Under the pieces are notes generated by a model. It made no database searches and was not told the DNA's origin. It saw only the letters and a list, made by a program, of their open reading frames with translations. The translations under genes and the position numbers were made by a program. From Stutzerimonas stutzeri (GTDB lineage Bacteria > Pseudomonadota > Gammaproteobacteria > Pseudomonadales > Pseudomonadaceae): 42,120 nt of DNA. The stretch is taken from NCBI RefSeq assembly GCF_024448895.1, contig NZ_JAMOIC010000029.1, positions 1 to 42,120 of the forward strand, in the 5' to 3' direction. Below, one piece after another: positions 5,468-28,901 of this stretch; the first letter of the stretch is position 1; each line of letters starts with the position of its first letter.

Positions 5468-7306
5468 TCAGCCGTCCAGCATTGCCTTGTTGCGCACTGC
5501 GCCTTTGTCGGCGCTGGTTGCGAGCAGGGCGTAGGCCTTGAGCGCAGTGGTCACCTTGCGCGGGCGTGGGGCGGCGGGTTTCCAGCCTTTCTTGTCCTGC
5601 TCGATGCGGCGGTGGGACAGTTCTTCATCGCTGACCTGCAGCTGAATGCTGCGGTTGGGGATGTCGATCACTACCTTGTCGCCGTCGCGCACCAGGCCGA
5701 TGGCGCCGCCGGCGGCGGCTTCAGGCGAGGCATGGCCGATGGACAGGCCCGAGGTGCCGCCGGAGAAGCGGCCGTCGGTGAGCAGCGCGCAGTCCTTGCC
5801 CAGGCCCTTGGATTTCAGGTATGAGGTTGGATAGAGCATTTCCTGCATGCCCGGGCCGCCTTTCGGGCCTTCGTAGCGAATGATGACGATGTCGCCGGCC
5901 TTCACTTCGTCATTGAGGATGCCCTTAACAGCGCTGTCCTGGCTTTCGAAGATCTTGGCGGTGCCTTCAAACACGTGGATGGATTCGTCCACGCCCGCGG
6001 TTTTCACCACACAGCCATCGAGCGCGATGTTGCCGTAGAGCACGGCCAGGCCGCCTTCCTGGGAATAGGCATGCTCGACGCTGCGGATGCAGCCTTCGGC
6101 GCGGTCCAGGTCCAGGGTGTCCCAACGGGTCGACTGGCTAAACGCCGTCTGCGTCGGGATACCGGCCGGGCCGGCCTTGAAGAAGGTGTGTACCGCTTCG
6201 TCCTGGGTCTGGGTGATGTCCCATTGGGCGATGCCTTCCGCAAGCGTCCGGCTGTGCACGGTGGGCACGTCGGTGTGCAGCAGGCCGCCACGGGCCAGCT
6301 CACCCAGAATGGAGAAGATACCGCCGGCGCGGTGCACGTCTTCCATGTGGTACTTCTGGATGTTCGGCGCAACCTTGCACAGCTGCGGCACCTTGCGTGA
6401 CAGGGCATCAATGGCGCGCAGGTCGAAATCGACCTCGGCTTCCTGAGCCGCAGCCAGCAGGTGCAGGATGGTGTTGGTCGAGCCGCCCATGGCGATATCC
6501 AGGGTCATGGCATTTTCGAAGGCGCGGCGGCTGGCGATATTGCGCGGCAGAACGGATTCGTCGCCCTCGCCGTAATAGCGCTGGCAGAGCTCTACGATGG
6601 TGCGGCCAGCCCGCAGGAACAGCTGCTCGCGGTCGCTGTGCGTAGCGAGGGTCGAACCGTTGCCGGGCAGGGCGAGGCCAAGGGCTTCGGCCAGGCAGTT
6701 CATTGAGTTGGCAGTGAACATGCCGGAGCAGCTGCCACAAGTCGGGCAGGCGCTGCGCTCGTATTCGGCGACCTTCTCGTCCGAGGCGCTTTCATCGGCA
6801 GCGATGACCATGGCGTCGACCAGGTCCAGGCCGTGGCTGGCCAGCTTGGTCTTGCCGGCTTCCATCGGGCCACCGGAAACGAACACCACAGGGATGTTCA
6901 GGCGCAGGGCGGCCATTAGCATGCCGGGGGTGATCTTGTCGCAGTTGGAGATGCAGACGATGGCATCGGCGCAATGCGCGTTGACCATGTATTCGACCGA
7001 GTCGGCGATGATCTCGCGCGAAGGCAGCGAATAGAGCATGCCATCGTGGCCCATGGCGATGCCGTCATCGACCGCAATGGTGTTGAATTCCTTGGCGACG
7101 CCGCCGGCCTTTTCGATCTCGCGGGCGACCAGCTGGCCCAAGTCTTTCAGGTGCACGTGGCCGGGCACGAACTGGGTGAAAGAGTTGGAAATGGCGATGA
7201 TCGGCTTCTTGAAGTCTTCGTCCTTCATGCCGGTGGCACGCCACAGCGCGCGGGCGCCGGCCATGTTGCGGCCGTGCGTGGAGGTTTTCGAGCGGTAATC
7301 GGGCAT
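5468..7306 (-). CDS. ilvD: Dihydroxy-acid dehydratase
   Basis: IlvD dehydrates 2,3-dihydroxy-isovalerate and 2,3-dihydroxy-3-methylvalerate to the 2-keto acids of valine and isoleucine synthesis. At 612 residues it has the usual length of the bacterial enzyme. The iron-sulfur cluster cysteines are visible in [11 protein letters not shown] at about 118-128 and [19 protein letters not shown] at about 190-210. The start [19 protein letters not shown] is the conserved N-terminus, and AGGA lies six bases before the ATG. It is transcribed alone, towards the DUF4153 gene. A dyad at 7355-7385 lies upstream of the start and could be regulatory. Confidence 0.97.
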
Positions 7307-7780
7307 GACGGTTCCTGCGGCTAATCAGCGGTTCGAATAGTGCTTATGGTGAGCGTCACCTGTGCCGCGTGCAACGGCAGGTGACCGTGCGTGCGGAGGG
7401 GCCGGCTCGAGGCGGGGTATCGCTCGGGCGGCCTGGGCTCATGGCCCGCCGGGGGATGGTGGCGAGGAATGTGCCAATTCTACGCCCGTTCCCTCTGGCG
7501 AGCCAAACGGCACGATTACTGGTGCTCATCCTACGTTGAGTCAGGCGCATCAACACCGAAGCTAATGATGAATTATTCAGGTGGAGCGAAGCGCGGCCGT
7601 TCGTCCGCTGCAAGGGCGCTTCCAGTGGCGCGGTGGTTTCAGCTGGCTAGGGTTGATTCGGGCCGACTGGCCACCCGCGTCGTTGACGGTCGGGGATATA
7701 GGAGGTGCAGTGCGCTCGCCTCGCATGGCGGGCTGGCGCGAACGTCCATACACATAATCAGAACAACAAGAGGAATGCAC
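7307..7780. other. 474-bp gene-free spacer between ilvD and the cutinase gene
   Basis: The spacer must hold the divergent promoters of ilvD (minus) and the cutinase gene (plus). I see one strong dyad at 7355-7385. Around 7529-7595 there are fragments resembling the GTAGGATG repeat family: CATCCTACG, and GGTGGAGCGAAGCG near 7580. No convincing small gene was found. An open frame running into the cutinase gene from 7391 lacks a ribosome-binding site and does not look like part of the protein. Confidence 0.5.
7355..7385. promoter_or_regulatory. Hairpin or dyad upstream of ilvD
   Basis: GTCACC-TG-TGCCG and CGGCAGGTGAC form an 11-bp imperfect stem with a 2-base bulge and a 7-base loop. It lies about 50-80 bases upstream of the ilvD start. 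No T-run follows it towards ilvD, so an operator or leader structure is more likely than a terminator. The role is unknown. Confidence 0.4.
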
Positions 7781-8629
7781 ATGCTGGACATCAAACTCGG
7801 CGGCATTGCCGCTGCGCTGAGCTTGGCGATTTGCGGATTTGCCATGGCTGCACCACTGCCGGATACGCCCGGCACGCCATTTCCAGGCGTGTCCAACTTC
7901 GACCGCTCCGGCCCCTACGCCACGACCAGTCGCAGCGAAGGCCCCAACTGCCGCGTTTATCGTCCCAGTAACCTGGGGCAGAACGGCGTCCGACATCCGG
8001 TGATTCTATGGGGTAACGGAACCGGGACTGGGCCGACCGCGTATTCGGGGCTGTTGTCGCACTGGGCCAGCCATGGCTTCGTCGTTGCGGCGGCAGAAAC
8101 GTCCAATGCCGGCACCGGACGGGACATGCTGGCCTGCCTCGACTACCTGGTTCAGGAGAGTAATCGCACCTTCGGCACCTATGTAGGCGTGCTCAATACG
8201 GGCAGGGTCGGCACGTCTGGGCATTCCCAGGGTGGCGGCGGTTCTATCATGGCCGGGCAGGATGATCGCGTAAGCGCAACTGCGCCGATTCAGCCTTACA
8301 CCATCGGCCTGGGCCACAACCCGGCGTCCCAGCGGAACCAGAAGGGGCCGATGTTTCTGATGTCAGGCGGAGCCGACACCATCGCGTTTCCCTACCTGAA
8401 CGCGCAGCCGGTCTACACGCGAACTAACGTGCCGGTGTTCTGGGGGGAGCGGCGCTATGTCAGCCACTTCGAGCCTGTCGGTGACGGTGGCGCCTACCGC
8501 GGCCCGTCGACCGCCTGGTTCCGCTATCACCTGATGGAAGACGAAACGGCGCGCAGCACCTTCTATGGTCGCTTCTGCGGGTTGTGCACCAGCGTCTTGT
8601 GGACAGAGCAACGCAAGGGCATCGAGTAA
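7781..8629 (+). CDS. Secreted cutinase/polyesterase (Pseudomonas mendocina cutinase family)
   Basis: This 282-residue alpha/beta hydrolase has a clear Sec signal peptide (residues 1-23, cleavage AMA|APLPD). From memory it closely resembles the cutinase of Pseudomonas mendocina/pseudoalcaligenes, which hydrolyses cutin, triglycerides and polyesters including PET. The nucleophile is Ser149 in GHSQGG, with Asp199 in GGADTIAFP and His229 in YVSHFEP. Numbered from the mature N-terminus these are 126, 176 and 206, the triad positions I recall for that enzyme. Cys57/Cys119 and Cys266/Cys269 could form disulfides, the last pair within CGLC. The start at 7781 is six bases after AGAGGA; an ATG two codons earlier overlaps that spacing. 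The gene stands alone. Confidence 0.92.
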   Translation: MLDIKLGGIAAALSLAICGFAMAAPLPDTPGTPFPGVSNFDRSGPYATTSRSEGPNCRVYRPSNLGQNGVRHPVILWGNGTGTGPTAYSGLLSHWASHGFVVAAAETSNAGTGRDMLACLDYLVQESNRTFGTYVGVLNTGRVGTSGHSQGGGGSIMAGQDDRVSATAPIQPYTIGLGHNPASQRNQKGPMFLMSGGADTIAFPYLNAQPVYTRTNVPVFWGERRYVSHFEPVGDGGAYRGPSTAWFRYHLMEDETARSTFYGRFCGLCTSVLWTEQRKGIE

Positions 8630-8637
8630 CGCCCGAC

Positions 8638-8671
8638 GAAGCCCCGCACGCGTCATTGGTGCGAGGGCTTC
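8638..8671. terminator. Probable terminator hairpin between converging genes
   Basis: GAAGCCC-CGCAC pairs with GTGCGAGGGCTTC, a 12-bp stem with one bulged base and a 9-base loop. It sits between the cutinase stop codon and the rlmI stop codon. A long T-run is absent, so it may be a weak terminator or a transcript-end stabiliser. Confidence 0.55.
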
Positions 8672-8687: not shown

Positions 8688-9884
8688 TCAGCTGTTAGGC
8701 AGGATGCGGCAGGTGATGCTCTTGATGTAGCGCGTTTCCGGGATCGCAGGATGCACCGGGTGGTCCGGGCCCTGGCCGCCGCGCTCAAGCAGCTGAATGT
8801 TGCGATCCAGATGACGCGCGCTGCCGAGCAGGATGTTCTGCAGGTTGTCTTCCTCCAGGTGCATCGAGCAGCTGGCGCTGATCAGGATGCCGTCCTTGTT
8901 CAGTAGGCGCATGGCGGCTTCGTTCAGACGACGGTAAGCGGCTTCGCCGTTCTTGATGTCCTTCTTGCGCTTGATGAAGGCGGGCGGGTCGGTGATGACC
9001 ACGTCGAAGCGCTCCTCGGCGTTCTTCAGCTCCTTCATCGCTTCGAAGGCATCGCCCTCGACACAGGTCATCTTCTCCGCTACGCCATTGAGCGCGGCAT
9101 TGCGCTCGACGCCGTCCAGGGCGAAGGCTGAAGCGTCGACGCAGAACACCTCGCTGGCACCGAAGGCCGCGGCCTGTACACCCCAGCCGCCGATGTAGCT
9201 GAACAGGTCCAGCACGCGCTTGCCCTTCACATAGGGCGCCAGACGCGCGCGGTTCATGCGGTGGTCATAGAACCAGCCGGTCTTCTGGCCCTGCAGAACC
9301 GGGGCTTCGAATTTCACGCCGTTCTCTTCCAGCGCAACCCATTCCGGGACCACGCCGAACGCAGTATCGACGTACCGCTCGAGACCTTCGGCATCGCGGG
9401 CGCTGGAGTCGTTTTTCCATAGCACGCCGCGCGGCTTGAGCACCTGAACCAGCGCTTCAAGCACGGCATCCTTGTTGCGCTCCATGGTGGCCGAAGCCAG
9501 CTGCACCACCAGATGATCATGGAAGCGGTCCACCACGAGCCCCGGCAAAAGGTCCGAGTCACCATAGATCAGGCGATAGCAGGGTTGATCGAACAGACGA
9601 TCGCGCAGCGACAGGGCGACCTGAATACGGTGCACCAGCAGTGATTTGTCCAGACTGTGCTTGAGGTCGCGGGACAGTAAGCGCGCGCAGATCAGGTTGT
9701 TTGGGGAGACGCCGACAATGCCCAGCGGTTTGCCGCCAGCCGCTTCGAGGATCGCCTGATCACCGGCAGCAAAACCGCTGAGCGGCGTGGCGGCGGTATC
9801 CACTTCGTTGCTGTAGACCCACAGATGGCCGGCGCGCAGGCGGCGATCGGCGTTGGCTTTGAGGCGCAGGCTGGGCAGGCTCAT
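8688..9884 (-). CDS. rlmI: 23S rRNA m5C1962 methyltransferase
   Basis: RlmI methylates C1962 of 23S rRNA using S-adenosylmethionine. The 398-residue protein has an N-terminal PUA domain (about 1-75, with RLRAGHLWVYSNEV). The Rossmann-like methyltransferase domain follows, with the SAM-binding DLFSYIGGWGVQAAAFGA near 226, the TDPPAFIKRKKDI motif near 297 and the catalytic-region SCSMHLEEDN near 340. Length and domain order match the E. coli enzyme. The start codon and the first motif agree with family N-termini. It converges on the cutinase gene. Confidence 0.93.
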   Translation of the reverse strand: MSLPSLRLKANADRRLRAGHLWVYSNEVDTAATPLSGFAAGDQAILEAAGGKPLGIVGVSPNNLICARLLSRDLKHSLDKSLLVHRIQVALSLRDRLFDQPCYRLIYGDSDLLPGLVVDRFHDHLVVQLASATMERNKDAVLEALVQVLKPRGVLWKNDSSARDAEGLERYVDTAFGVVPEWVALEENGVKFEAPVLQGQKTGWFYDHRMNRARLAPYVKGKRVLDLFSYIGGWGVQAAAFGASEVFCVDASAFALDGVERNAALNGVAEKMTCVEGDAFEAMKELKNAEERFDVVITDPPAFIKRKKDIKNGEAAYRRLNEAAMRLLNKDGILISASCSMHLEEDNLQNILLGSARHLDRNIQLLERGGQGPDHPVHPAIPETRYIKSITCRILPNS

Positions 9885-16702: not shown

Positions 16703-16736
16703 CCACCTGTAACAGCCGTTCTGTCTGGTGGAATTC

Positions 16737-19586
16737 ATGTGGGTTGCTCAAGCGCGAGATTACCGAACAACCCTGGCGGCTGTTTTTTACGGATACACGA
16801 CGTTTTGTGGGCGACTGATTTGCGCGGCGCTTTTAGCACTCTGCGGCGTGCTCGCACCTGTTCCAGTCGTCCAGGCTGACACCACAAACCCCGGCAGCGT
16901 AGCGTTTTGGTATGCCGCCAACCCCCCGCTCGCCGAACTCGCACAATTCGAATGGACCGTTCTGGAATCCGCACACCTGGAGCCCAAGGATGTGGCTTTC
17001 CTTCGCGAACAGGGCAGCGAGCCCTTCGCTTATCTTTCTGTCGGCGAATATGACGGCAACCTCGAGGCGTCTGACGCCGACGTAGCCTCGGGTGCCAGCG
17101 ACGTACGCAACCACGCCTGGAACAGCCAGGTAATGCTGCTCTCTTCCAGTGCCTGGAGAACGCATCTGCTACGACGTGCCGAGGCGCTTGCGGAGCAGGG
17201 ATATGCCGGTCTGTTTCTCGACACCCTGGACAGTTTTCAGTTGCTTCCAGAGGCAGAGCGAGAAGCGCAACGTATCGCTCTGCGTGATTTTCTCGCCGAG
17301 CTGAAGCGGCAGCAGCCCGCTATGAAGCTGATATTCAACCGTGGTTTTGAGGTACTGCCAGAGCTGCCGGGAGTGGCATCCGCCGTGGCTGTCGAATCAA
17401 TCCACTCAGGGTGGGATGCCAGCGGGGCGCGTTATCGGAAGGTGCCGCAGGAGGATCGCGACTGGCTGAACCTGCACCTCGACCCGTTGCGGGCCAAAGG
17501 CGTACCGCTGATAGCCATCGACTACCTGCCAGCTGATCGCCGCGCCGAGGCGCGTGAATTGGCTCGTCGGCTGCAGTCGGAAGGCTTTCTGCCCTTCGTG
17601 ACGATGCCCGATCTGAATTACCTGGGCGTGAGTAACGTTGAGGTTCAACCGCGCCGTATTGCTGTCGTCTATGACCCGCGCGAGGGGCCCCTGTCCACCA
17701 ATCGCGGTCACATGTTTCTGGGCGGACTGCTCGAGTACCTGGGGTATCGCACCGACTATCTTGCGGCAGACCAGCTTCCGGATGGTCCGCTTGGTGGGCT
17801 GTACGCGGGTGTAGTGACCTGGATGACCAGCGGGCCGCCGGTTGACTCAGTCAAATTCGATCAATGGCTTTCGGCACGTATCGATGAGTCCGTTCCGTTG
17901 GCAATTATGGCGGGCCTGCCGGTCTCAGATCAGAGTCTGCTGACTCGAATGGGGCTGCAGCGGGTTCGCCAGCAAGCCAAGCGGGAGGTCGGGATCGCCA
18001 GTCAGGACAAGGATCTGGTAGGCGATTTCGAGGCGCCGGTGGTGATTCGCTTGCGTGATCTGGTCCCGCTCAATGTCATCAATGGCAGCGCGACCCCCGC
18101 CCTTGCCCTTATCGACAGCGAAGAACGTCGCTATGTCCCTATTGCCACAGGTGCGACGGGCGGCATTGCGCTCAACCCTTACATCATCGAAGAAGGGCCG
18201 GACAGTCAGCGCTGGATTCTCGACCCGTTCGCCTTCCTCCAGCGTGCCCTGAGGTTGCCGGCCATTCCGCGGCCGGATGCCACCACAGAGAACGGCCGGC
18301 GTGTCGCGACGGTGCATATCGACGGCGATGGCTTCCTTTCAAGAGCGGAAGTGACCGGGTCTCCTTATGCAGGGAGTGAGGTGCATAAAACGTTCATCAA
18401 GCCTTATCCGTTGCTCACTTCCGTATCGGTCATCGAGGGTGAGATAGGCCCCAAGGGACGCTATCCGCATCTCGCCCGTGAGCTTGAGCCGATCGCACGG
18501 GAGATATTCGCGGACGCCAGGGTCGAGGTGGCGACTCACAGTTTCAGTCATCCTTTTTTCTGGCAGCCTGAGCGGGCTCAGCAGCGCGAAGGTTTTAATG
18601 CCGATTACGGGCTGTCGATGGTCATTCCAGGCTACGACAGGCTCGACTTCGAGCGGGAGGTCATTGGATCCACCGCGTATATAAACGAGCGCCTCACCAG
18701 TCCATCGAAGCCGGTCAAGATGATCTTCTGGACGGGCGACGCCCTGCCAGATGCCGCGACCATCAAGCTGGCCTATGACGCCGGGCTGGCGAACGTAAAC
18801 GGCGGCACAACGATATTGACCCATGCGCGTCCGTCGCTCACCGGTTTATCGCCGCTCATCAGGCCCACTGCGGGCGGCATTCAGTACTACGCGCCGATTA
18901 TCAACGAGAACCTCTACACCAACCTGTGGCAGGGACCGTACTACGGCTTTCGGGAGGTGCTGGACACCTTCGCGCTCACGGATGCGCCCCGCCGGTTGCG
19001 TGGTCTGCACCTGTATTACCACTTCTATTCGGCGACCAAGCAGGCCTCGATTAGGGTCATAACGGAGATCTACGAGTCGATGCTGGCTGAACAGCCGATC
19101 TCCCTATGGATGAGCCAATACATCACCCGTATGCATGGCTTGCACCAAGCAAGTCTGGCTCGGCTGGCCGATGGACGCTGGCAGGTTCGCGGTCTGGACG
19201 GCCTGCGTACGCTGCGACTGGACCCGGCGCTCGGCTGGCCGGATCTTGGACAATCAGTAGGGGTCGCGGGCGTTCGGGATCTGCCCCAGGGTCGTTACGT
19301 GCATCTGAGCTCACCGGTCGCGGTACTGGCGCTACGGACCGAGCGTGATCCACGTCCAGCGCTGGAGCAGGCAAACCTGCCGTTGCTGCGCTGGGATTAT
19401 GTCGATGAGCACAGGGTGAAGGTGTCGTTCGCCGGCGAAATGCCCCTGCGTTTCGCGGTACGTGCGGCAGGCCGTTGTTCACTAGACGTTGCCGGCAAGC
19501 GTCATCAGGCCGTGAAAGCGGATGGATTGTGGCGGTTCGATCTGCCAGGGAATCGAGTGATAGATGCGCAACTCCTCTGTCACTGA
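16737..19586 (+). CDS. pelA: Pel polysaccharide hydrolase/deacetylase PelA
   Basis: PelA is the periplasmic two-domain enzyme that cleaves and partly de-N-acetylates Pel, a polymer rich in N-acetylgalactosamine. The N-terminal hydrolase domain (about 50-300) has Asp162 in LFLDTLDSF and Glu220 in AVESIHSG, matching PAO1 Asp160 and Glu218. The C-terminal deacetylase has Asp529 in HIDGDGF and His601/His605 in THSFSHPFF, matching Asp528, His600 and His604. The length of 949 residues is close to PAO1 (948 by memory). The ATG at 16737 is favoured by this numbering; a GTG at 16728 is the alternative. The signal peptide is unusually long (about 47 residues, hydrophobic core LICAALLALCGVLAPV). The gene overlaps pelB by 23 bases. 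Confidence 0.97.
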   Translation: MWVAQARDYRTTLAAVFYGYTTFCGRLICAALLALCGVLAPVPVVQADTTNPGSVAFWYAANPPLAELAQFEWTVLESAHLEPKDVAFLREQGSEPFAYLSVGEYDGNLEASDADVASGASDVRNHAWNSQVMLLSSSAWRTHLLRRAEALAEQGYAGLFLDTLDSFQLLPEAEREAQRIALRDFLAELKRQQPAMKLIFNRGFEVLPELPGVASAVAVESIHSGWDASGARYRKVPQEDRDWLNLHLDPLRAKGVPLIAIDYLPADRRAEARELARRLQSEGFLPFVTMPDLNYLGVSNVEVQPRRIAVVYDPREGPLSTNRGHMFLGGLLEYLGYRTDYLAADQLPDGPLGGLYAGVVTWMTSGPPVDSVKFDQWLSARIDESVPLAIMAGLPVSDQSLLTRMGLQRVRQQAKREVGIASQDKDLVGDFEAPVVIRLRDLVPLNVINGSATPALALIDSEERRYVPIATGATGGIALNPYIIEEGPDSQRWILDPFAFLQRALRLPAIPRPDATTENGRRVATVHIDGDGFLSRAEVTGSPYAGSEVHKTFIKPYPLLTSVSVIEGEIGPKGRYPHLARELEPIAREIFADARVEVATHSFSHPFFWQPERAQQREGFNADYGLSMVIPGYDRLDFEREVIGSTAYINERLTSPSKPVKMIFWTGDALPDAATIKLAYDAGLANVNGGTTILTHARPSLTGLSPLIRPTAGGIQYYAPIINENLYTNLWQGPYYGFREVLDTFALTDAPRRLRGLHLYYHFYSATKQASIRVITEIYESMLAEQPISLWMSQYITRMHGLHQASLARLADGRWQVRGLDGLRTLRLDPALGWPDLGQSVGVAGVRDLPQGRYVHLSSPVAVLALRTERDPRPALEQANLPLLRWDYVDEHRVKVSFAGEMPLRFAVRAAGRCSLDVAGKRHQAVKADGLWRFDLPGNRVIDAQLLCH

Positions 19587-22500
19587 GCCTACTCGCCTGC
19601 TCAGCCCCTGGGCCCTGCTACTGGTGGTGGCGCTCATCGGCGCTCTGCTGGTGTTGACCTATACCGGCGAAGACGTATTCATGCCGAGTGAGAAACAGCC
19701 CGATGCCGTTTCCATCAGTTACGCCGAGCTTTTGCTCGAAGCGCACCCTGATGACACGAGTCTGCGCTTCAAACTCATCGAGCAGCTCGTCGAGCTGGGT
19801 GACCTCGCGCGGGCACGCTCGCATGTATTCAAACTGGGCGAACCTGAATCTGACAGCGTGCGCTTCTTTCTAGCCGAGCTGGCGGTGCTCGAGGCTCAGG
19901 CTGCGCCTGAAGGCATACCCCCTCCTGCGCTCAATGCCCTCCGCGATCAGCTAAACGCCGTAGAACGCGCAAGTATCTCTATCGAGCAGCTTTCGCGTCT
20001 CGCTCGTTATGCCCTGGCGCTTGGTGATCCTGCTTTGGCGGCACACGCCTATGGCGATCTGGCGATTCGAGATGAAGCTCAGCGCGAGCACTGGCTGATC
20101 GAGTCGGCGCAGGCCCACCTGGGAGCAGGGGAAACGCTGGCTGCTGCACGCATCTTTACCGATCTACTGGCCAGTACCGAGTCTCCCGTCGAACGTCGCG
20201 AATATTTGGCCAAGGCCTTCTCCGCGATGCTTGCGGCGGATCAGAGCGAGCAGGCAGCGGAGCTGATTCAGCGCAATCTCGATCTGATGAGCGCTGCTGA
20301 CGGAGATCTGTTTGGCATGGCCGCGCGCGCCGGGATCGGCAGTCATCGCTACGATCTGGCGATGGAGACGGTCGCCCGTTGGCGCAGGTTGAAGCCGGAC
20401 GATGCGTCCGCCGTAAATGCAGACTTGCAACTGCGGCTCGCTGCGGGGCAGCTGGAACAGGCGTGGGCGGCGGGACAGGACCTGTCAGCGCTTGGCCCGT
20501 TGGATGCCGGTAATCTGGAACTCATGGGCAAACTGGGCGAGTGGACAGGCCGGACGAATGAAGCGCTTGGCTTCTGGTTGCGCCTGGTTCAGTTACGCGA
20601 TGAGCCTGCGGTTCGTGAACATGCCTGGCGCCTCGCGTCGCAGCTGTTCGATTTCGATAACACCATTGGTTTGCTATCCGGCGCAGGAAAGCTTCGGCAG
20701 TTGTCCGACACCGAGTTGGATGCGCTCGTCTACAGCCATAACGCGCGCGGCACGCCCGAGCAGGCCGAGCGCTGGCTGCGTGACTATCTGCGAGTCTGGC
20801 CCGGGCATCAGCTCGGCTGGCTGCGCCTGCAGCAGATCCTCGAGCAAACCCATCAGCAGGTTGCATTGGTCGAGCTGTGGGCACAGATCGATCGTCGCTT
20901 CGGTCTTACGATCGATCAGCGGGTCGAGTGGGCCCTGGACCATTGGGAGCTGTTCGACCCCCAAGCTGCATGGCGCGTGCTCGAGGGCGTGGAGCTCGAC
21001 TCGGTGTCCGACCAAGCGTACTGGCTTCTGCGAGCCGAGCTAGCGTGGGAGCTGGAGCGAGACTCAGACACGCTCGACGCCTATCGCAGGCTGGCCGATC
21101 TGGGAGTGGTTCCGAACAACACATCCGAAGAGCGACTCATTGCACTCTATGAGCGTAATGAACCGACTCTGGCACTTGATGTGATGATCGCCAGTTGGGA
21201 ACGCAACCGCACGCCGTCGAATCTCACTCGCGCCCTGCAGTTGGCCATGGAGCTGGAGGATGCGAACCGGCTTGAAGCGTTGGTCAACGAAGGCCTCGAA
21301 CTGCCTGACGCTGAAAAAATTGCAGCTATCTGGAGTGCTCGCGCATTCATAGCCGCTCGTAATGGCGACCGTGCCGAAACCGAGCAGATCTACCTTCAGG
21401 CCGTGTCACTTTTCCCCCATACAGGGACGTTCCGCGAGCAGTTGCTCTGGCACTACATCGATCATGCTCAGCGTGACGCGCTGGCGCCGCTTCTGCGGCA
21501 ATGGGAGCCATTGGCTCGCAAGCAGAGCGGGCTGTGGCTACCCTTTGCAAGCGCAAACCTGATGCTCAATCGCAACGATCAGGTGTTGCGATGGTTCGAC
21601 CTTTACTTGCGAAAGGACTCAGACGACTTGCTGGTGCAGGCGGCATATGCCGATGCGCTGGACAGCGCCGGCTATGCGGATCGTGCACTGCGTCTGCGAC
21701 GTCATGTGCTGCGTAATTTCGAAATGCCTGTGGCCGGAGCCGACCTGGCGTTGTATCAAACCTACCTGCGGCTACTGACTTCAGGGGGCGCACGCATGGC
21801 CGCCGGTGAGCTGGCGCTGCGCTGGAGCGATGGCTCACAGCCCTTGTTGCAGTTTTGGTTCGACCAGTTCAGCGAGCAACTCGACGCGACCAACCAGGGT
21901 GCGCTCAAGGAGCAATGGTTGGCTTGGGCTCGTAGCAAAGGCCTGCGAATCAGTCGCTATGCCGAACTGCAACAGGCGTTGCAAGAGCAAAACCGCCAGA
22001 CTCTGGAGCGTCTGCTTGCTGAGGGCGGGTTGGATCCTGCGCAGCGTGTCGAGGCTTTGCAGCGCCTGGGCGCTACAGGCCTTGCCTTGGCGGAAGGTCT
22101 GCAGGCGCTCTCGGCCGAGCAGCCGGTTGCAGTGCAGCAGCAATTGCGCCGGCAGACGCTGGCACTGCAGGAGCGCAATCCTCAGGGCGTTCGGATAGGC
22201 ATGCGCCAACAGGACTTCGGGTCCCTCAAGCTGCAGGGGCAAACCGCGGAGATCGCGGGGCAACTTGACCATGATTGGCACGCGCAGCTGTCGCTTGGCC
22301 GCAACCGTTATTCCGGCAGCGCGCTTACTGCCCAGCCTGGAGAATTGACCCGCGATGCGGAGGATTTACGGCCAGGTATCGAGCGCTCAGCAGAATTGCG
22401 ACTGACCCGGGCCTTGGACGATGGGTCACTTGGCTTGGAGGTGGACACCAGCCGCCACGACGAGGGTGATCGTACCGGGTTGGGTATCACCCGCACTCTT

Positions 22501-23127
22501 CAGCTCAACAGTGGCGATACCCTGGAATTTCAGATGGGATGGCATCGTCAGGCCGAAGAGAGCGGCCTGCTGCGAGCCATGGGACGACGCGATTCGCTGG
22601 GCGTCAGCGGCATTCATTCCATCAGCGCTCGCGACCAGATCAGCTGGTCGCTCGCTCAGCAACGTTTCAGCACTTTGAGTGGTGAATCGGTTGGCAGCGG
22701 CCAGCAAGTCAGCCTTGAGCTGAGCCATGCCGTTTTCTTCGAGGGCCCGACATGGACGCTTCGCAGCGGACTCAGCTATGCAAAATATGGCACGTCGAAC
22801 GACGAGCTGCGTTCAGTCAGCGCGCCTGCGGCCGACTTACTACAGGACCGCTTCGGTCAGGCCTATATCGGTAGCACCTGGCGCCGCGGTTTTCCGGGCG
22901 CAATGAATCGCAGCACCGCGCAGTTCAGCTGGATCTTCGATGTGCTGGCCGGTTGGCAGTGGACCGAACAGCAAACCAACTACGCCATCAACACCGGCGT
23001 CGGCATGCAGGTGCTCGGCGACGATGAACTGGCATTCACCTTTGGCTATCAGTCCGCACCGAAGAATGGTGATGGCGAACCAGGTGGGACTTTGGGCATG
23101 ACTTACAGCGCTCGATTCGGGCGCTGA
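19564..23127 (+). CDS. pelB: Pel export outer-membrane porin with TPR scaffold PelB
   Basis: This 1187-residue protein has an N-terminal membrane anchor (about 13-31, LLSPWALLLVVALIGALLVL). A long helical tetratricopeptide region follows (about 50-860), recognisable from repeated A/L/W-rich helix pairs such as LGDLARARSHVFKLGE. The last 300 residues (from about 880) alternate polar and hydrophobic residues as in a beta-barrel. PelB is the secretion pore for Pel; its TPR region binds PelA in the periplasm and stimulates it. The length agrees with PAO1 PelB. The start lies inside the end of pelA, and the stop overlaps the region just before pelC, which fits translational coupling. Confidence 0.95.
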   Translation: MRNSSVTEPTRLLSPWALLLVVALIGALLVLTYTGEDVFMPSEKQPDAVSISYAELLLEAHPDDTSLRFKLIEQLVELGDLARARSHVFKLGEPESDSVRFFLAELAVLEAQAAPEGIPPPALNALRDQLNAVERASISIEQLSRLARYALALGDPALAAHAYGDLAIRDEAQREHWLIESAQAHLGAGETLAAARIFTDLLASTESPVERREYLAKAFSAMLAADQSEQAAELIQRNLDLMSAADGDLFGMAARAGIGSHRYDLAMETVARWRRLKPDDASAVNADLQLRLAAGQLEQAWAAGQDLSALGPLDAGNLELMGKLGEWTGRTNEALGFWLRLVQLRDEPAVREHAWRLASQLFDFDNTIGLLSGAGKLRQLSDTELDALVYSHNARGTPEQAERWLRDYLRVWPGHQLGWLRLQQILEQTHQQVALVELWAQIDRRFGLTIDQRVEWALDHWELFDPQAAWRVLEGVELDSVSDQAYWLLRAELAWELERDSDTLDAYRRLADLGVVPNNTSEERLIALYERNEPTLALDVMIASWERNRTPSNLTRALQLAMELEDANRLEALVNEGLELPDAEKIAAIWSARAFIAARNGDRAETEQIYLQAVSLFPHTGTFREQLLWHYIDHAQRDALAPLLRQWEPLARKQSGLWLPFASANLMLNRNDQVLRWFDLYLRKDSDDLLVQAAYADALDSAGYADRALRLRRHVLRNFEMPVAGADLALYQTYLRLLTSGGARMAAGELALRWSDGSQPLLQFWFDQFSEQLDATNQGALKEQWLAWARSKGLRISRYAELQQALQEQNRQTLERLLAEGGLDPAQRVEALQRLGATGLALAEGLQALSAEQPVAVQQQLRRQTLALQERNPQGVRIGMRQQDFGSLKLQGQTAEIAGQLDHDWHAQLSLGRNRYSGSALTAQPGELTRDAEDLRPGIERSAELRLTRALDDGSLGLEVDTSRHDEGDRTGLGITRTLQLNSGDTLEFQMGWHRQAEESGLLRAMGRRDSLGVSGIHSISARDQISWSLAQQRFSTLSGESVGSGQQVSLELSHAVFFEGPTWTLRSGLSYAKYGTSNDELRSVSAPAADLLQDRFGQAYIGSTWRRGFPGAMNRSTAQFSWIFDVLAGWQWTEQQTNYAINTGVGMQVLGDDELAFTFGYQSAPKNGDGEPGGTLGMTYSARFGR

Positions 23128-23153
23128 TGCGGCAATCACAGGGAGAAGCAAAG

Positions 23154-23672
23154 ATGTCATCCATTCGTAGCCTGGTAGTGCTGGCCATGGTCTTTTTAAT
23201 TGGCGGCTGCACCACCTTTACCGAGCAAAACGCACCCGTGTTACCGCGCGCAGCCGCGTGGGGATTGGTACCGGTAGTCAATTATTCTCAGGCGCCACAG
23301 GCGGGTGAGCGTGCCGAGCAGATTCTCCTTAGCGTGCTGGCCGAGCGCGGCCTCCAGCCACGTCACTATCCGGTGGTGGCGCAATCGGATCTGCCCATGC
23401 TTGATGATCGGGAGCGGCTGGCCAAGGCGCTTGCTTGGGCAAAAGCCGAGCGTCTCGATTACGTCATCAGTGGCAGCGTCGAGGAGTGGCAGTACAAGAG
23501 TGGCCTGGATGGCGAGCCCGCGGTTGGCGTGAGTCTGCAAGTGATCGAGCTTGCCAGTGGCCGCGTCGTCTGGAGCAAGAGTGGCGCGCGTGCCGGCTGG
23601 TCCCGGGAAAGTCTTGCTGGCACCGGGCAGAAGGTTCTGCGTGAGCTGGCCGGCGCGTTGCGTCTCGAATAA
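23154..23672 (+). CDS. pelC: Pel export outer-membrane lipoprotein PelC
   Basis: PelC is a small lipoprotein that forms a dodecameric ring at the inner face of the outer membrane, guiding Pel to PelB. The chosen start at 23154 gives 172 residues, the length I recall for PAO1. It places a lipobox (IGGC, Cys19) after a typical signal peptide, with GGGAG eight bases upstream of the ATG. An in-frame ATG at 23127 adds nine residues before the signal peptide and overlaps the pelB stop. The stop overlaps the pelD start in a TAATG junction. Confidence 0.94.
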   Translation: MSSIRSLVVLAMVFLIGGCTTFTEQNAPVLPRAAAWGLVPVVNYSQAPQAGERAEQILLSVLAERGLQPRHYPVVAQSDLPMLDDRERLAKALAWAKAERLDYVISGSVEEWQYKSGLDGEPAVGVSLQVIELASGRVVWSKSGARAGWSRESLAGTGQKVLRELAGALRLE

Positions 23673-25045
23673 TGGCACTCGGCTCGGCACATAAGGACTT
23701 CACGCTGGCCCCTCGCGCCAGCACCGCCGTTTCGTGGTTAGAAACCTGGCTCATCACCGGCTTGGCCATCGGCATTGGCTATTGGTTGATGCCTGGCGAT
23801 CCGCTGATGGTTGAAAACTCGTTTCCCTGGCCGGTACTCGCGCCCTTGCTGCTCGGCATGCGCTACGGCTTCATGCGCGGACTCGTCAGCGCAGTGTTGC
23901 TGATCCTCGCGCTGATTGCCTACCACAGGTTCGGCGACGGGCTATACGCGGAAATGCCAGCCTCCTTCATCGTCGGTGTGCTGGTCAGCGGCATGCTGGT
24001 AGGTGAGTTTCGCGATATATGGGAGCGGCGGCTCGAGCGCCTGGATCTGGCTAACGACTATCGGCAGCTGAGGCTCGACGAGTTCACTCGGGCGCATTAC
24101 ATCCTGCGTATTTCCCATGACCGGCTGGAGCAGCGGATTGCGGGTAATGATCAGAGCCTGCGCAGCTCGCTCGTTGGTCTGCGTAACCAGTTGCGCAGCT
24201 TGCCTCGGGGAGACGACCCGCTCGCCAAACTGGCCGATCCGGTGCTAAGCCTGCTTACGCAGTACGGCTCGTTCAGGTCGGCAGGGCTCTATCGCGTGAA
24301 GGAAGGTGTCGCCGTAACTGCCCCCTTGAGCGTGGTGGGTGACACAGCACCGATGGATCAGAACGACCTGCTGCTGCGTATGTGCCTGAAGCGCGGGGAA
24401 TTGGTCAGTATTCGCGAGGAGTTGCTCGAGCGCGGGGAGCACAGAGAGCACTCTCGTTACCAGCTCTGCGTCCCGCTTATTGATACCGACGGGCGCATTC
24501 TGGCCATACTTGCAGTCGAGCAGATGCCTTTCTTCTCGTTCAATGATCGGGTGTTCGGATTGCTTTCGATCCTTGCCGGACATATAGCCGACCTCATTCT
24601 GAGTGATCCCCAGACACTGCAGCTGCAGGACATGGACAGCCAGGTATTCAGCCAGAACCTGAAGCGCTCGTTGAGCGATGCCCAGTTTCATGGCCTCGAC
24701 GCCAGCCTGTTCATGCTGGAAGTCAACGCATCGCCCTACAGCGAAAAACTGCTGCGCCTGATAGAAGACAGCCGGCGCGGACTGGACCTGCAGCTCAGAG
24801 CAGTGAATCAACGCGGCAATACCTGTGTTCTGGTACTTCTGCCGCTGACTTCGGCCGAGGGCGCGCAGGGCTATCTGTTCCGCCTCAACATATTGCTCGC
24901 CGAGCGCTTCGGCGCCGATGAAACGCTGGAAAGCTTGCAGGTAAGGGTGCTTGCGCATGACATCGGCACCGCAAGGGGCCACGAATCGATACACCATTTC
25001 CTCTACAGCGAGTGCGCCCTGAATGATCAGCAAGTGGCTGTTTAG
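23672..25045 (+). CDS. pelD: c-di-GMP receptor for Pel synthesis PelD
   Basis: PelD is the inner-membrane c-di-GMP receptor that switches on Pel polymerisation. The 457-residue protein has four hydrophobic segments (about 22-110), a coiled linker (115-165), a GAF domain (about 180-310) and a degenerate GGDEF domain (320-440) with no GGDEF catalytic motif. The inhibitory-site RxxD is present as Arg369-Gly-Leu-Asp372, and Arg404 lies 35 residues after Arg369. PAO1 uses Arg367, Asp370 and Arg402 with the same spacing, so ligand binding should be retained. The start overlaps the pelC stop by one base, and the end overlaps pelE by 23 bases. Confidence 0.96.
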   Translation: MALGSAHKDFTLAPRASTAVSWLETWLITGLAIGIGYWLMPGDPLMVENSFPWPVLAPLLLGMRYGFMRGLVSAVLLILALIAYHRFGDGLYAEMPASFIVGVLVSGMLVGEFRDIWERRLERLDLANDYRQLRLDEFTRAHYILRISHDRLEQRIAGNDQSLRSSLVGLRNQLRSLPRGDDPLAKLADPVLSLLTQYGSFRSAGLYRVKEGVAVTAPLSVVGDTAPMDQNDLLLRMCLKRGELVSIREELLERGEHREHSRYQLCVPLIDTDGRILAILAVEQMPFFSFNDRVFGLLSILAGHIADLILSDPQTLQLQDMDSQVFSQNLKRSLSDAQFHGLDASLFMLEVNASPYSEKLLRLIEDSRRGLDLQLRAVNQRGNTCVLVLLPLTSAEGAQGYLFRLNILLAERFGADETLESLQVRVLAHDIGTARGHESIHHFLYSECALNDQQVAV

Positions 25046-26012
25046 CGGCGCTCTGCTGTTCGAGGTTGGCAGCTGGGCAGCCTTTCAAGAGCAGTTAAGC
25101 GTCGCCCAGGCGACTTCGCTTTACCTGGGGGCACATGCTCTGAGCAGCGCCCTGCTCGCCGGCGGTATCTGGCTGCTGTTGCCGCGACGTTACAAGTTTC
25201 CCCTGCCGTGGAGCCCTCTGTTTATTTTCAGTCTGGCTTTTTTCGTACCCGGACTGGGGGCCGTCGGCGTCGCTGCCGCGCTATTTCCGGCGCTCTATCT
25301 GCCTCGTCGACACAAGGAGCTGAGCTGGGACTCCATGGCGCTTCCCGAGCTGCCATTCCGCCCTCAGGTGCGCGGCAAGGAGCTGATGTTTAACGACGGT
25401 GGCCTGCAGGATGTGCTGCGCCACGCCCCTGATACCGAAAAGCGGTTGACCGCTCTGTTCGCCACTCGCCGTATGCCCGCACGGGAGGCAATCCCCATCC
25501 TCAAGGTGGCGCTGCGCGATCCGGCTGATGATGTACGGTTGCTCGCGTATTCGATGCTCGACAAGCAGGAAAGCGAGATCAACCTTCGCATCGAGACGTC
25601 GCTGCAACAGCTTGCCACCGCAGACGGGGCACACAAGGCCGCACTGCATGATGCGCTGGCGCGTTGGTACTGGGAGCTCGCTTATCTCGGGCTGGCACAG
25701 GGCAGTGTGCTCGAGCATGTGCTTGACCAGGCGCGGGAGCATGCGGAACGAACACTCGATGACGTCACTAATCCCTACGCGCATGTTCTGGCCGGCCGGA
25801 TCGCCCTGGAGCAAGGGCGACTGGATGCCGCGAAGATCCATTTTGACCATGCCGAGGCGGCTGGTGTCAGCAGGCCGACCCTGGCTCCATACCGTGCCGA
25901 AACGGCCTTTAACGAAGGTCGTTATGAGGAGGTCGCCCGGCAGCTGTCCGAGCTGCCCGAGCCTGTCCTTCAACGCCCCCCATTTGCTGCCCTCGCGAAG
26001 TATTGGTTGTGA
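25023..26012 (+). CDS. pelE: Pel synthesis inner-membrane protein PelE
   Basis: This 329-residue protein has about three N-terminal hydrophobic segments (residues 4-20, 33-53 and 65-93). A helical, TPR-like cytoplasmic domain follows (about 130-325), with repeated units such as YAHVLAGRIALEQGRLDAAK. PelE joins PelD and PelG in the inner-membrane synthase complex and is thought to recruit PelF. It is recognised mainly from its place between pelD and pelF and its domain plan. Its start lies inside pelD, and its TGA overlaps the pelF GTG in a GTGA junction. Confidence 0.92.
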   Translation: MISKWLFSGALLFEVGSWAAFQEQLSVAQATSLYLGAHALSSALLAGGIWLLLPRRYKFPLPWSPLFIFSLAFFVPGLGAVGVAAALFPALYLPRRHKELSWDSMALPELPFRPQVRGKELMFNDGGLQDVLRHAPDTEKRLTALFATRRMPAREAIPILKVALRDPADDVRLLAYSMLDKQESEINLRIETSLQQLATADGAHKAALHDALARWYWELAYLGLAQGSVLEHVLDQAREHAERTLDDVTNPYAHVLAGRIALEQGRLDAAKIHFDHAEAAGVSRPTLAPYRAETAFNEGRYEEVARQLSELPEPVLQRPPFAALAKYWL

Positions 26013-27529
26013 CCGAGCCCAATTCAGAAATCCCCGTTGCTGATGTCTGCCTGTTGCTCGAGGGCACATGGCCCTATGTGCGCGGAGGCGTCTCCAGCTG
26101 GGTCAATCAGCTGATCCTCGGGCTACCAGAGTTCACCTTTTCGGTGTTCTTCATCGGCGGCCAGCGAGAGGCTTACGGCGAGCGCCAGTACAAGATTCCC
26201 CCAAACGTGGTGCACATCGAAGAGCATTTTCTGGAGTGTGCGTGGCGCCCCGGTGATGCTGTGGAGGTTGCCCGGAGCCGCGGTTCGCGCGACAGCATGC
26301 GGCAGATGCATCAATTCCTGCATCATCCCGACGACCCCAGCGTCGCGCAGGGCGAGGCAATCCTCGAGCTTCTTGCATCGGGGCGGCTCAGTCTCGAAGA
26401 CGTACTGCATAGCCGGTCCAGCTGGGAAGCGATTACCGATGGCTATACCCAACATTGCAGCGATCCTTCGTTCATCAATTACTTCTGGACGCTGCGCACC
26501 ATGCATGCGCCGTTGGTCATGCTCGCCCAGGCGGCAGCGCGACTACCACGGGCCAGAGCGCTGCATTCAATCTCGACCGGCTATGCCGGCTTGCTCGGCG
26601 CAATCCTGCAGAAGCGCTGGCAATGCCCCTATATGCTCAGCGAGCACGGCATCTATACCAAGGAGCGCAAGATAGACCTGGCGCAGGCGAGCTGGATATC
26701 CGAGGGGTCGGACGAGGCTTTGCGCACCGGCCTGGATACCGAGTTCAGCTACATCCGCAAGCTCTGGATCCGCTTCTTCGAGCGTATCGGGCTGCTCACC
26801 TATCGCGCAGCCAATACGATTATTTCTCTGTACGACGGCAACCGCCAACGGCAGATAGCCGATGGCGCCGACCCGGAGAAGACTCAAGTGATACCCAATG
26901 GGATCGCGATGGCTGCCTGGGGCGACGCTCTACAGCGCCGGCCGGCGGGCATTGCGCCGGTAGTCGGTCTGGTTGGTCGCGTTGTACCGATCAAGGACGT
27001 GAAGACCTTCATCCGCGCCATGCGGGGTGTGGTCAGCGCAATTCCTGATGCGGAAGGATGGATAGTGGGACCCGAGGAAGAGGATCGTGCCTATGCCGCT
27101 GAGTGTCGCAGCCTGGTGATCAGTCTGGGGCTCGAGGGCAAGGTGAAGTTTCTGGGCTTCCGTCAAATTCATGAGCTGCTGCCCAATCTCGGCCTGATGG
27201 TACTTACCTCGATCAGCGAGGCGCAGCCCCTGGTGATTCTCGAGGCATGGGCAGCCGGCACGCCCGTGGTGACCAGCGACGTAGGCTCATGTCGTGAGTT
27301 GATCGAAGGTGCGCCCGACGAAGAGCCGCCATTGGGCTGCGCGGGCGAGGTCGTCGCGATTGCCGATCCGCAGGCCACTTCACGCGCGATCGTCAGCTTG
27401 TTGAGTAGCCCGGAGCGCTGGCGAGCGGCTCAGGCGGTAGGTCTGCAGCGAGTCAACCGTTACTACACCGAAGCGATCATGCTCGACCGCTATCGCACGC
27501 TCTATCGCAACGCCAAGGGAGAAATCTGA
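26009..27529 (+). CDS. pelF: Pel glycosyltransferase PelF
   Basis: PelF is the cytoplasmic GT4-family glycosyltransferase that polymerises Pel from UDP-sugars. The 506-residue protein opens with VADVCLLLEGTWPYVRGGVSSWV (about 9-31, glycine-rich donor-side loop). It has the GT4 C-terminal motif EAQPLVILEAWAAGTPVVTSD near 405-425, containing the retaining-enzyme ExxxxxxxE pair. The GTG at 26009 is chosen because it forms a GTGA overlap with the pelE stop and gives a start M-T-E-P like the PAO1 protein. A TTG two codons earlier is the alternative. It ends one base before pelG. Confidence 0.96.
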   Translation: MTEPNSEIPVADVCLLLEGTWPYVRGGVSSWVNQLILGLPEFTFSVFFIGGQREAYGERQYKIPPNVVHIEEHFLECAWRPGDAVEVARSRGSRDSMRQMHQFLHHPDDPSVAQGEAILELLASGRLSLEDVLHSRSSWEAITDGYTQHCSDPSFINYFWTLRTMHAPLVMLAQAAARLPRARALHSISTGYAGLLGAILQKRWQCPYMLSEHGIYTKERKIDLAQASWISEGSDEALRTGLDTEFSYIRKLWIRFFERIGLLTYRAANTIISLYDGNRQRQIADGADPEKTQVIPNGIAMAAWGDALQRRPAGIAPVVGLVGRVVPIKDVKTFIRAMRGVVSAIPDAEGWIVGPEEEDRAYAAECRSLVISLGLEGKVKFLGFRQIHELLPNLGLMVLTSISEAQPLVILEAWAAGTPVVTSDVGSCRELIEGAPDEEPPLGCAGEVVAIADPQATSRAIVSLLSSPERWRAAQAVGLQRVNRYYTEAIMLDRYRTLYRNAKGEI

Positions 27530-27530
27530 C

Positions 27531-28901
27531 ATGGCCGGGATTGGCTTCGAGCTGCGCAAGATCCTCTCGCGTGATTCCTACACGGCCACGCTGAGAGCCT
27601 ATGTATATGCCGGTCTGATCAGCTCCGGCCCGTGGGTCCTGTCGATCATCAGTGTGATGTTGATCGGGGTGATGAGCCTGGGCGTCGTCGTACCTGAGTT
27701 TTTGATACGACAGTTCCTGGTAAGCGTGACCTATCTGATGGCCTCCTCACTGATCGTCACCGGCGGGGCGCAGTTGTTCTTCACCCGCTTCATTTCGGAT
27801 CGTTTGTTCGAAAAAAAGCAGGAGGTGATCCTGCCGAACCTGATCGGGATACTCCTGGTCACCACCGTTTCGTCTGGTGTGCTGGGCTTTGTCCTGCTCT
27901 GGCTGCTGTTCGACCAGCCATTTCTCTACCGTCTGCTGATGCTGGCGAACTTCGTGGTGCTCTGTAACCTGTGGCTCACCATCATTTTTCTGTCCGGCAT
28001 GAAAGCCTACAACCGCATCCTGCTGGTCATGGCGGCAGGCTATTCGCTCATGGTCCTGTGTTCATTCCTGCTGCGCTTTCTGAAACTTGAAGGGCTGCTG
28101 CTGAGCCTGCTGATCGGGCATGCCAGCCTGTTCTTCATGTTTTTGTTCGACATCTTGCGCGAGTACCCGGCCAGGCAACTGGTGGCGTTCGACTTCTTCA
28201 AGCGTAAACAGGTGTTCCTCAGCCTGCTGGTGACCGGGCTCTGCTACAACCTGGGAATCTGGATCGACAAGATCGTGTTCTGGTTCAACCCAAGCACGTC
28301 CAGCCAGGTTATCGGTCCTCTGCGGGCTTCGATGCTTTACGACCTGCCCATCTTTCTCGCTTACCTGGCCATCATTCCCGGAATGGCGGTGTTTCTGGTG
28401 CGAATCGAAACGGACTTCGCCGAGTGGTATGACCGTGTTTACTCGGCCATACGCGGCGGCGAGACCCTGCAGCATATCGGTCAGCTCAAGCAGCAGATGA
28501 TCCTGGCGGTACGCCAGGGGCTGCTGGAAATATGCAAGGTTCAGGGGCTGACCGTTGTGTTGCTTTTTCTCATCGCGCCGCAGCTGCTGTCGTGGCTGGG
28601 CATATCCGCTTACTACCTGCCGCTGTTCTACGTCGATCTGATCGGCGTCAGCATTCAGGTGGTGTTCATGGCGTTGCTCAACGTGTTCTTCTACTTGGAC
28701 AAGCGCCGGATCGTCCTGGAGCTTTGCCTGATCTTCGTATTGCTGAACGCTGTACTGACCGTCGTCAGCCAGCAGATGGGGCCAAGTTTCTTTGGCTATG
28801 GTTTCACGCTGTCGGTATTGGCCTGCGTACTGCTTGGGTTGGTTCGACTCGCCAACTCGCTGGAAGATCTTGAGTACGAGACGTTCATGCTGGGGCGTTG
28901 A
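27531..28901 (+). CDS. pelG: Pel inner-membrane transport protein PelG
   Basis: This 456-residue polytopic protein has about 12 hydrophobic segments and a short cytoplasmic start, MAGIGFELRKILSRDSY, highly typical of PelG. It belongs to the MOP flippase superfamily and is thought to carry Pel across the inner membrane together with PelD and PelE. It has the same length as in PAO1 by memory. GGGAG lies seven bases before the ATG. It is the last gene of the operon and converges on the YheT-like gene only 13 bases away; no clear terminator is visible between them. Confidence 0.95.
   Translation: MAGIGFELRKILSRDSYTATLRAYVYAGLISSGPWVLSIISVMLIGVMSLGVVVPEFLIRQFLVSVTYLMASSLIVTGGAQLFFTRFISDRLFEKKQEVILPNLIGILLVTTVSSGVLGFVLLWLLFDQPFLYRLLMLANFVVLCNLWLTIIFLSGMKAYNRILLVMAAGYSLMVLCSFLLRFLKLEGLLLSLLIGHASLFFMFLFDILREYPARQLVAFDFFKRKQVFLSLLVTGLCYNLGIWIDKIVFWFNPSTSSQVIGPLRASMLYDLPIFLAYLAIIPGMAVFLVRIETDFAEWYDRVYSAIRGGETLQHIGQLKQQMILAVRQGLLEICKVQGLTVVLLFLIAPQLLSWLGISAYYLPLFYVDLIGVSIQVVFMALLNVFFYLDKRRIVLELCLIFVLLNAVLTVVSQQMGPSFFGYGFTLSVLACVLLGLVRLANSLEDLEYETFMLGR

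Follow-up and report, generated by a model that had tools for sequence, protein, structure and literature searches.

The 42,120-nucleotide stretch examined here (the window) comprises positions 1 to 42,120 of the forward strand of contig NZ_JAMOIC010000029.1, from the Stutzerimonas stutzeri assembly GCF_024448895.1. Between a gene for dihydroxy-acid dehydratase (ilvD) and one for an RlmI-like RNA methyltransferase lies a gene for an alpha/beta hydrolase. Its product is very probably a serine esterase that is exported and belongs to the type III PETases (PET, poly(ethylene terephthalate)), as the Stutzerimonas counterpart of PmC, the cutinase of Pseudomonas mendocina. The kind of enzyme and the named group are already known, as is a characterised relative from Stutzerimonas itself, and the window gene is a sound additional copy. 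As read from its sequence, the enzyme would be a close relative of the few type III PETases characterised so far, and it offers a few natural substitutions around the cleft (Thr60, Ala64 and Asn157) and in the C-terminal acidic count.

The hydrolase gene and its likeness to PmC

A first-pass annotation made from the letters of the window had placed an exported alpha/beta hydrolase at this site, and both its reading frame, of 282 codons, and its coordinates proved right (Table 1). The same frame extends upstream as a 412-codon open reading frame starting with GTG at 7391, and a second in-frame ATG at 7775 directly abuts the GAGGA motif ahead of the ATG at 7781. The predicted cleavage point of the signal peptide (AMA-APLP) coincides with the first residue of the chain in structure entry 2fx5, a P. 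mendocina lipase that we take to be PmC, and the predicted model of the hydrolase has a pLDDT (predicted local distance difference test) below 50 at residues 1-21. Residue numbers below refer to the mature protein.

The triad named in the first-pass annotation, Ser149, Asp199 and His229, corresponds to mature residues 126, 176 and 206, and none of the three positions varies across an alignment of 42 sequences. Its four cysteines, including CGLC (CSLC in 2fx5), were also found, at 34, 96, 243 and 246; these are all four of the disulfide positions of PmC and HaloPETase1, and the bonds would be expected to form as in the homologous structures. Thr58, Gln127 and Tyr150 make up a subsite I without an aromatic clamp, and subsite II has His125 and Phe207, with Gly59, Thr60 and Ala64 at its variable positions. 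The loop 3 insertion aligns without gaps to 2fx5 and to 9hl5 (HaloPETase1). The protein contains 9 Asp and 9 Glu, with 7 acidic residues after His206.

The mature protein and 2fx5 are identical at 206 of 258 positions (about 80%, no gaps, E 6.4e-147), so that alignment to the P. mendocina cutinase, the check proposed with the annotation, does not give low identity. The predicted fold overlays 2fx5 at 0.7 Å, and the triad, the four cysteines, Thr58, Gln127, Tyr150, Leu154, His156 and Phe207 are identical in the two. They are separated by 52 substitutions and one extra C-terminal Glu in the window protein, which has Thr60, Ala64 and Asn157 where PmC has Ala, Thr and Asp (loop 3, GLGHD), and 7 acidic residues after His206 compared with 5. 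These differences had been thought to lie mostly in surface loops and at the C-terminal end. The C-terminal part of that claim stands (15 of 33 positions at 226-258 differ, against 37 of 225 elsewhere), whereas the loops show only a weak excess (29 of the 52 substitutions, with loops making up 122 of the 258 positions; Fisher p 0.21) when loop is compared with helix and strand on the predicted model, a measure of structural class and not of surface exposure. The identity of 2fx5 to 9hl5 (159/254, 62.6%) is consistent with 2fx5 being PmC, since the published identity of PmC to HaloPETase1 is 62.4% (PMC12442448; this and the other papers cited are quoted from partial texts).

Against nine full-length relatives the gene has a ratio of nonsynonymous to synonymous divergence (dN/dS, NG86 method) of 0.044-0.105, with dS of 0.55-1.58, of which the larger values are rough; this ratio and the E value to 2fx5 place the match far beyond chance. 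The loci closest to 2fx5 (L014, L015 and L068, 90-93%) have ilvD upstream, as at the window locus; the methyltransferase gene is displaced in L014 and falls outside the fetched flank in L015 and L068. High identity and the ilvD-side site common to these three loci identify the window gene as a predicted orthologue of the PmC-type cutinase gene.

Table 1. Features of the hydrolase locus in window coordinates
Feature	Position	Strand	Remarks
Probable type III PETase / PmC-type cutinase gene	7781..8629	+	282 codons + stop
Likely ribosome-binding site GAGGA	7770..7774	+	from sequence reading
Predicted signal peptide, residues 1-23	7781..7849	+	cleavage from 2fx5 chain start and R75estA 23-24 site
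Cys57 (mature 34), expected to pair with mature Cys96	7949..7951	+	alignment
Cys119 (mature 96)	8135..8137	+	alignment
Nucleophile Ser149 (mature Ser126) in GHSQG, mature 124-128	8225..8227	+	alignment
Loop 3 insertion GLGHN (mature 153-157), type III mark	8306..8320	+	alignment
Asp199 (mature 176), triad member	8375..8377	+	alignment
His229 (mature 206), triad member	8465..8467	+	alignment
CGLC, mature Cys243-Cys246	8576..8587	+	alignment
GC-rich hairpin between convergent hydrolase and methyltransferase ends	8638..8671	.	possible shared terminator, without T-run
ilvD (dihydroxy-acid dehydratase), left anchor	5468..7306	-	
RlmI-like RNA methyltransferase, right anchor	8688..9884	-	all family matches below curated cut-offs
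ilvD-side block	7307..7488	.	matched in 10/13 short empty sites

Relatives and family assignment

The type III PETases were proposed by Turak et al. 2025 (PMC12442448) to comprise HaloPETase1-4, PmC and dsPETase05. The marks given in the available text are the GHSQG motif, a subsite I of Thr, Gln and Tyr without an aromatic clamp, a subsite II with conserved His and Phe and three variable positions, a loop 3 lengthened by five inserted residues that include Leu and His, a shortened loop 2, a loop 1 without an aromatic residue, and two disulfides at positions of their own, away from the active site. The window protein has GHSQG, both subsites, the loop 3 insertion and the four cysteines.

The Pfam family PF12740 matches the protein at 46.5 bits (cut-off 28). 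Three other assignments were tried and rejected. The fungal-type cutinase family does not apply, as the protein has no match to Pfam Cutinase (presumably PF01083) and only PF12740, PF03403 and PF07224 match at E <=0.001. The equivalog model for hydrolases of bis(2-hydroxyethyl) terephthalate (BHET), NF051441, gives 45.1 bits against a curated cut-off of 520. Type I and II PETases (LCC, IsPETase and PHL7; PF12740) have the fold and the triad in common with the window protein; types I, IIa and IIb are nevertheless excluded by Gln127 in place of Met after the nucleophile and by Thr58, with no aromatic clamp.

A scan of named genomes yielded 85 relatives, of which 80 were kept, representing 77 distinct loci. 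Throughout the 32 loci of at least 74% identity, Thr58, Gly59, Cys96, His125, Ser126, Gln127, Tyr150, Gly153, Leu154, Gly155, His156, Asp176, His206, Phe207, Cys243 and Cys246 are kept, as is Cys34 in 31 (the exception is a stop or an unread position). Tyr150 and His156 are each found in 32 of the 35 loci of about 52-70% identity. The triad, both Thr58 and Gln127, and the cysteine pair near the C-terminus are present in all ten of the most distant loci (L069-L078, 40-47%; seven Amycolatopsis, one other Pseudonocardiaceae and two metagenome-assembled genomes, MAGs); none has Tyr150 or the loop 3 residues (a gap in nine), and one has the first cysteine pair. Judged by these residues, they may possibly form a sister group to type III.

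HaloPETase1 (9hl5) and dsPETase05 (9k0h) are 66% identical to the window protein (169/254 for 9hl5) and have the same subsite I, loop 3 and cysteines. The net charge of 9hl5 is -6 over the aligned 254 residues, compared with +2 in the window protein, and it has 10 rather than 7 acidic residues after His206. In contrast to the window locus, no ilvD or methyltransferase gene was found near the Halopseudomonas copies. Over 252 compared columns the copy of H. pachastrellae (L046) matches 9hl5, an entry whose title gives a marine metagenome as its source, at 100% identity.

The relative characterised in the same genus is R75estA of Stutzerimonas sp. R75 (GenBank MGR6587169.1), published in July 2026 and 80.4% identical to PmC over 281 amino acids (PMC13396203). 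The accessible part of that paper reports activity on p-nitrophenyl (pNP) esters, with a preference for pNP-C4, and on olive oil, polycaprolactone (PCL), BHET and PET microparticles, an optimum at 3 M NaCl, and a turnover frequency on PET of 2 x 10^-2 per hour; it also proposes that the C-terminal acidic count tunes salt preference. As described there, R75estA is like the window protein in genus, triad, disulfide positions, Gly59/Thr60/Ala64, cleavage at 23-24, 9 Asp and 7 acidic residues after His206, but has Asp157 (GLGHD) and 10 Glu where the window protein has Asn157 (GLGHN) and 9 Glu. Seven of the 32 close loci (L002-L007 and L028) carry Ala64, and the published Gly59, Thr60, Ala64, Asp157 and acidic counts of R75estA fit the window's own subclade. 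A PCL-degrading Stutzerimonas isolate in which tomato cutin induces cutinase activity is described in the available text of PMC13407619; among the matches listed, the literature on this Stutzerimonas lineage held nothing beyond these two papers.

The locus in the genus

The host genome (5.39 Mb in 78 contigs) has a single copy of the hydrolase gene. In S. zhaodongensis (L002) the hydrolase is 95% identical to that of the window, ilvD 98% and the methyltransferase 99%. In a sample of 56 Stutzerimonas genomes, the window's own among them, 26 have a full-length or near-full-length copy (in one, G020, with an in-frame TGA). The other 30 comprise one genome with a remnant (G048), 27 complete genomes without the gene and two of 71-73% completeness without it. 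Three genomes having only a 33% relative were left out of the 26 carriers. These three (G037, G039 and G047), and G049 and G055 as second matches, contain a distant hydrolase relative of 31-33% identity elsewhere in the genome, possibly a polyesterase of another type.

All 54 genomes with a completeness of at least 90% contain both ilvD and the methyltransferase gene, and the hydrolase gene sits between them in 26 of 26 carriers and likewise in the carrier of the remnant. In the 27 non-carriers the gap between the two anchors is 131-631 bases in 13 and 2.2-17.6 kb in another 13, and the anchors lie on separate contigs in one. Twenty sites (all 13 short gaps, the remnant and 6 of the 13 longer gaps) were examined for coding remains. 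The G048 site (L087) contains a decaying hydrolase remnant in several separate matching pieces (E 9e-26), which points to gene loss at this site; the other 19 gave nothing better than E 0.28. The ilvD-side block is unmatched in 3 of the 13 short gaps.

Beyond the genus sample, ilvD lies upstream in 32 of the 32 named loci of at least 74% identity, and the methyltransferase gene is on the fetched stretch in 30 of them, two of which have it displaced by about 3 and 5 kb. Neither was found at the 45 more distant loci, where flanks were at most 6 kb and several contigs were short. In a protein tree made by a quick method from 70 of the 80 rows, without bootstrap, a single starred set of 27 rows contains both the window protein, which falls among Stutzerimonas, and 2fx5, which groups with P. 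guguanensis, P. alcaliphila and P. sp. ZH-FAD. Just beyond this set branches a Lysobacteraceae MAG (L032) whose stretch has no ilvD, and the copy of Colwellia maritima (L058) falls among Halopseudomonas; these placements imply some transfer, or misbinning, in the wider family. Two wider-family copies on different contigs occur in each of P. saliphila (L060/L041) and P. profundi (L061/L037).

The hairpin between the convergent hydrolase and methyltransferase genes has a z of -2.8, with 5 of 200 shuffles folding equally well (single-strand folding). It was missed by the terminator pattern scan and by an inverted-repeat search, which returned nothing. The promoter and terminator pattern scans found one element each, compared with 0.4 and 0.8 expected, nothing clearly above chance.

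Proposed function and alternative readings

The protein would be exported by a Sec-type pathway, with its signal peptide cleaved after residue 23, and might then cross the outer membrane through a type II secretion system; a GspD secretin model matches in the host genome at 532 bits (cut-off 351). In an open, lid-less cleft, Ser126, activated by His206 and Asp176, would attack ester carbonyls, with the backbone amides of Thr58 and Gln127 as the putative oxyanion hole, which in the homologous enzymes is itself a proposal in the parts of PMC12442448 and PMC13396203 available. Tyr150 and the inserted loop 3 (Leu154, His156) would take over from the aromatic clamp of types I and II in shaping the binding site, and two disulfides would stabilise the fold. 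Expected substrates are p-nitrophenyl esters, polycaprolactone and similar aliphatic polyesters; amorphous PET or BHET would be cut slowly, given the reported turnover of R75estA on PET. The hydrolysis of cutin, aliphatic polyesters or PET suggested in the first-pass annotation is thus a prediction well supported by homology.

Several points weigh against so close an equation with the known enzymes. The protein has weaker Pfam matches to PAF-acetylhydrolase and chlorophyllase. The type III call covers the motif, both subsites, loop 3 and the cysteines and is to that extent provisional; of loop 1, the residue Thr58 is present. Thr60 and Ala64 lie outside the residues listed, in the texts available, for Halopseudomonas type III homologues and also differ from PmC, so that rates may differ from those of the known enzymes, and loop 3 has Asn157 where both PmC and R75estA carry Asp. 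Kinship with R75estA is drawn from the residues named in the available text of PMC13396203 rather than from its full sequence. The secretin match by itself stands for type II secretion, a system that may be available to the protein, and activity of the window protein itself is as yet predicted.

The history of the gene bears on what the enzyme is for. Acquisition of a plastic-degrading gene under selection by PET pollution would account for the patchy distribution in the genus and for unexpected hosts in the wider family such as L032 and L058. This reading was rejected as highly improbable: the site beside ilvD is constant in close relatives and, between ilvD and the methyltransferase gene, in every carrier of the genus; the G048 remnant points to loss; the G+C content of the gene (63.4%) is close to that of its neighbours (ilvD 63.9%, methyltransferase 62.7%; window 61.3%); and synonymous divergence is at least 0.55 to each of the nine relatives compared. 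That the gene is a non-functional relic merely keeping the motif is scarcely credible. Decay does occur at this site, as the remnant and the in-frame TGA of the G020 copy indicate, but the window frame is open, its catalytic and cysteine positions are kept, and its dN/dS is low. The pattern around ilvD, judged from the loci and not from a species tree, fits an old resident that was repeatedly lost. The type III 'PETases' of Stutzerimonas and P. mendocina are likely to be an old one-site gene, under purifying selection where present and repeatedly lost, rather than a response to plastic.

A different account leaves fold and chemistry as they are and changes the native role: the protein would be a general-purpose esterase or lipase, exported to act on triglycerides or on esters of short and medium chain length, with polyester activity too slow to matter naturally and the label 'PETase' incidental. 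The pNP-C4 preference of R75estA, its clearing of olive oil and its slow turnover on PET (PMC13396203, partial text) favour this account, a natural substrate is compatible with the locus pattern and selection, and the PF00848 survey described below showed no clear terephthalate dioxygenase in the host. Polyester hydrolysis has, however, been reported in the texts available for PmC and R75estA, and the relevant cleft residues are unchanged here; PCL degradation and the induction of cutinase activity by tomato cutin in a Stutzerimonas isolate (PMC13407619, partial text) also speak against it. This account is tentative and, on balance, somewhat doubtful. On the cutinase reading the enzyme probably acts in nature on an ester of natural origin, cutin or lipids for instance, and PET activity would be incidental; this agrees with a gene long resident, lost in many lineages and held by purifying selection elsewhere. 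From the history of the locus, polyester activity in this group looks like a by-product of some older ecological role. If the gene is indeed an old one-site gene, its carriers and the sister species with empty sites would offer a ready-made comparison in the search for the native substrate, for instance cutin or some other natural ester.

Growth on PET is not supported, because no clear terephthalate dioxygenase was seen in a PF00848 survey of the host genome, in which no dedicated terephthalate-dioxygenase model was run. The survey gave three oxygenases: one is a glycine betaine monooxygenase above cut-off, and the other two (L109 and L110) matched aromatic-dioxygenase models below their cut-offs. 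Among the PDB matches of L109, naphthalene dioxygenase ranks first (228 bits) and terephthalate dioxygenase is last of 24 rows (92 bits). PF12740 matches two further places in the genome weakly, at 30.1 bits (cut-off 28) and at 26.9 bits, below it.

The genome also encodes one Tannase-family protein (L086 / L107:7694-9508; G000:C18, about 41.7-43.2 kb), whose best PDB matches are MHETase entries (E 1.3e-51) and which matches no NCBIfam model at E <=0.001. In place of the Cys that precedes the nucleophile and the Cys that follows the catalytic histidine in the MHETase rows (family motif CS-D-HC), it carries Gly and Ala. It is perhaps an esterase for aromatic plant esters. The same 16-kb stretch contains genes for two CoA-transferase subunits, a thiolase, alpha/beta hydrolases, an IclR regulator and a Cache chemoreceptor, and resembles a beta-ketoadipate (pca) cluster.

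Elsewhere in the window, positions 16728-28901 hold a Pel-type exopolysaccharide operon, with a GH114 domain protein, PelD, a DUF3492 glycosyltransferase (presumably PelF-like) and PelG.
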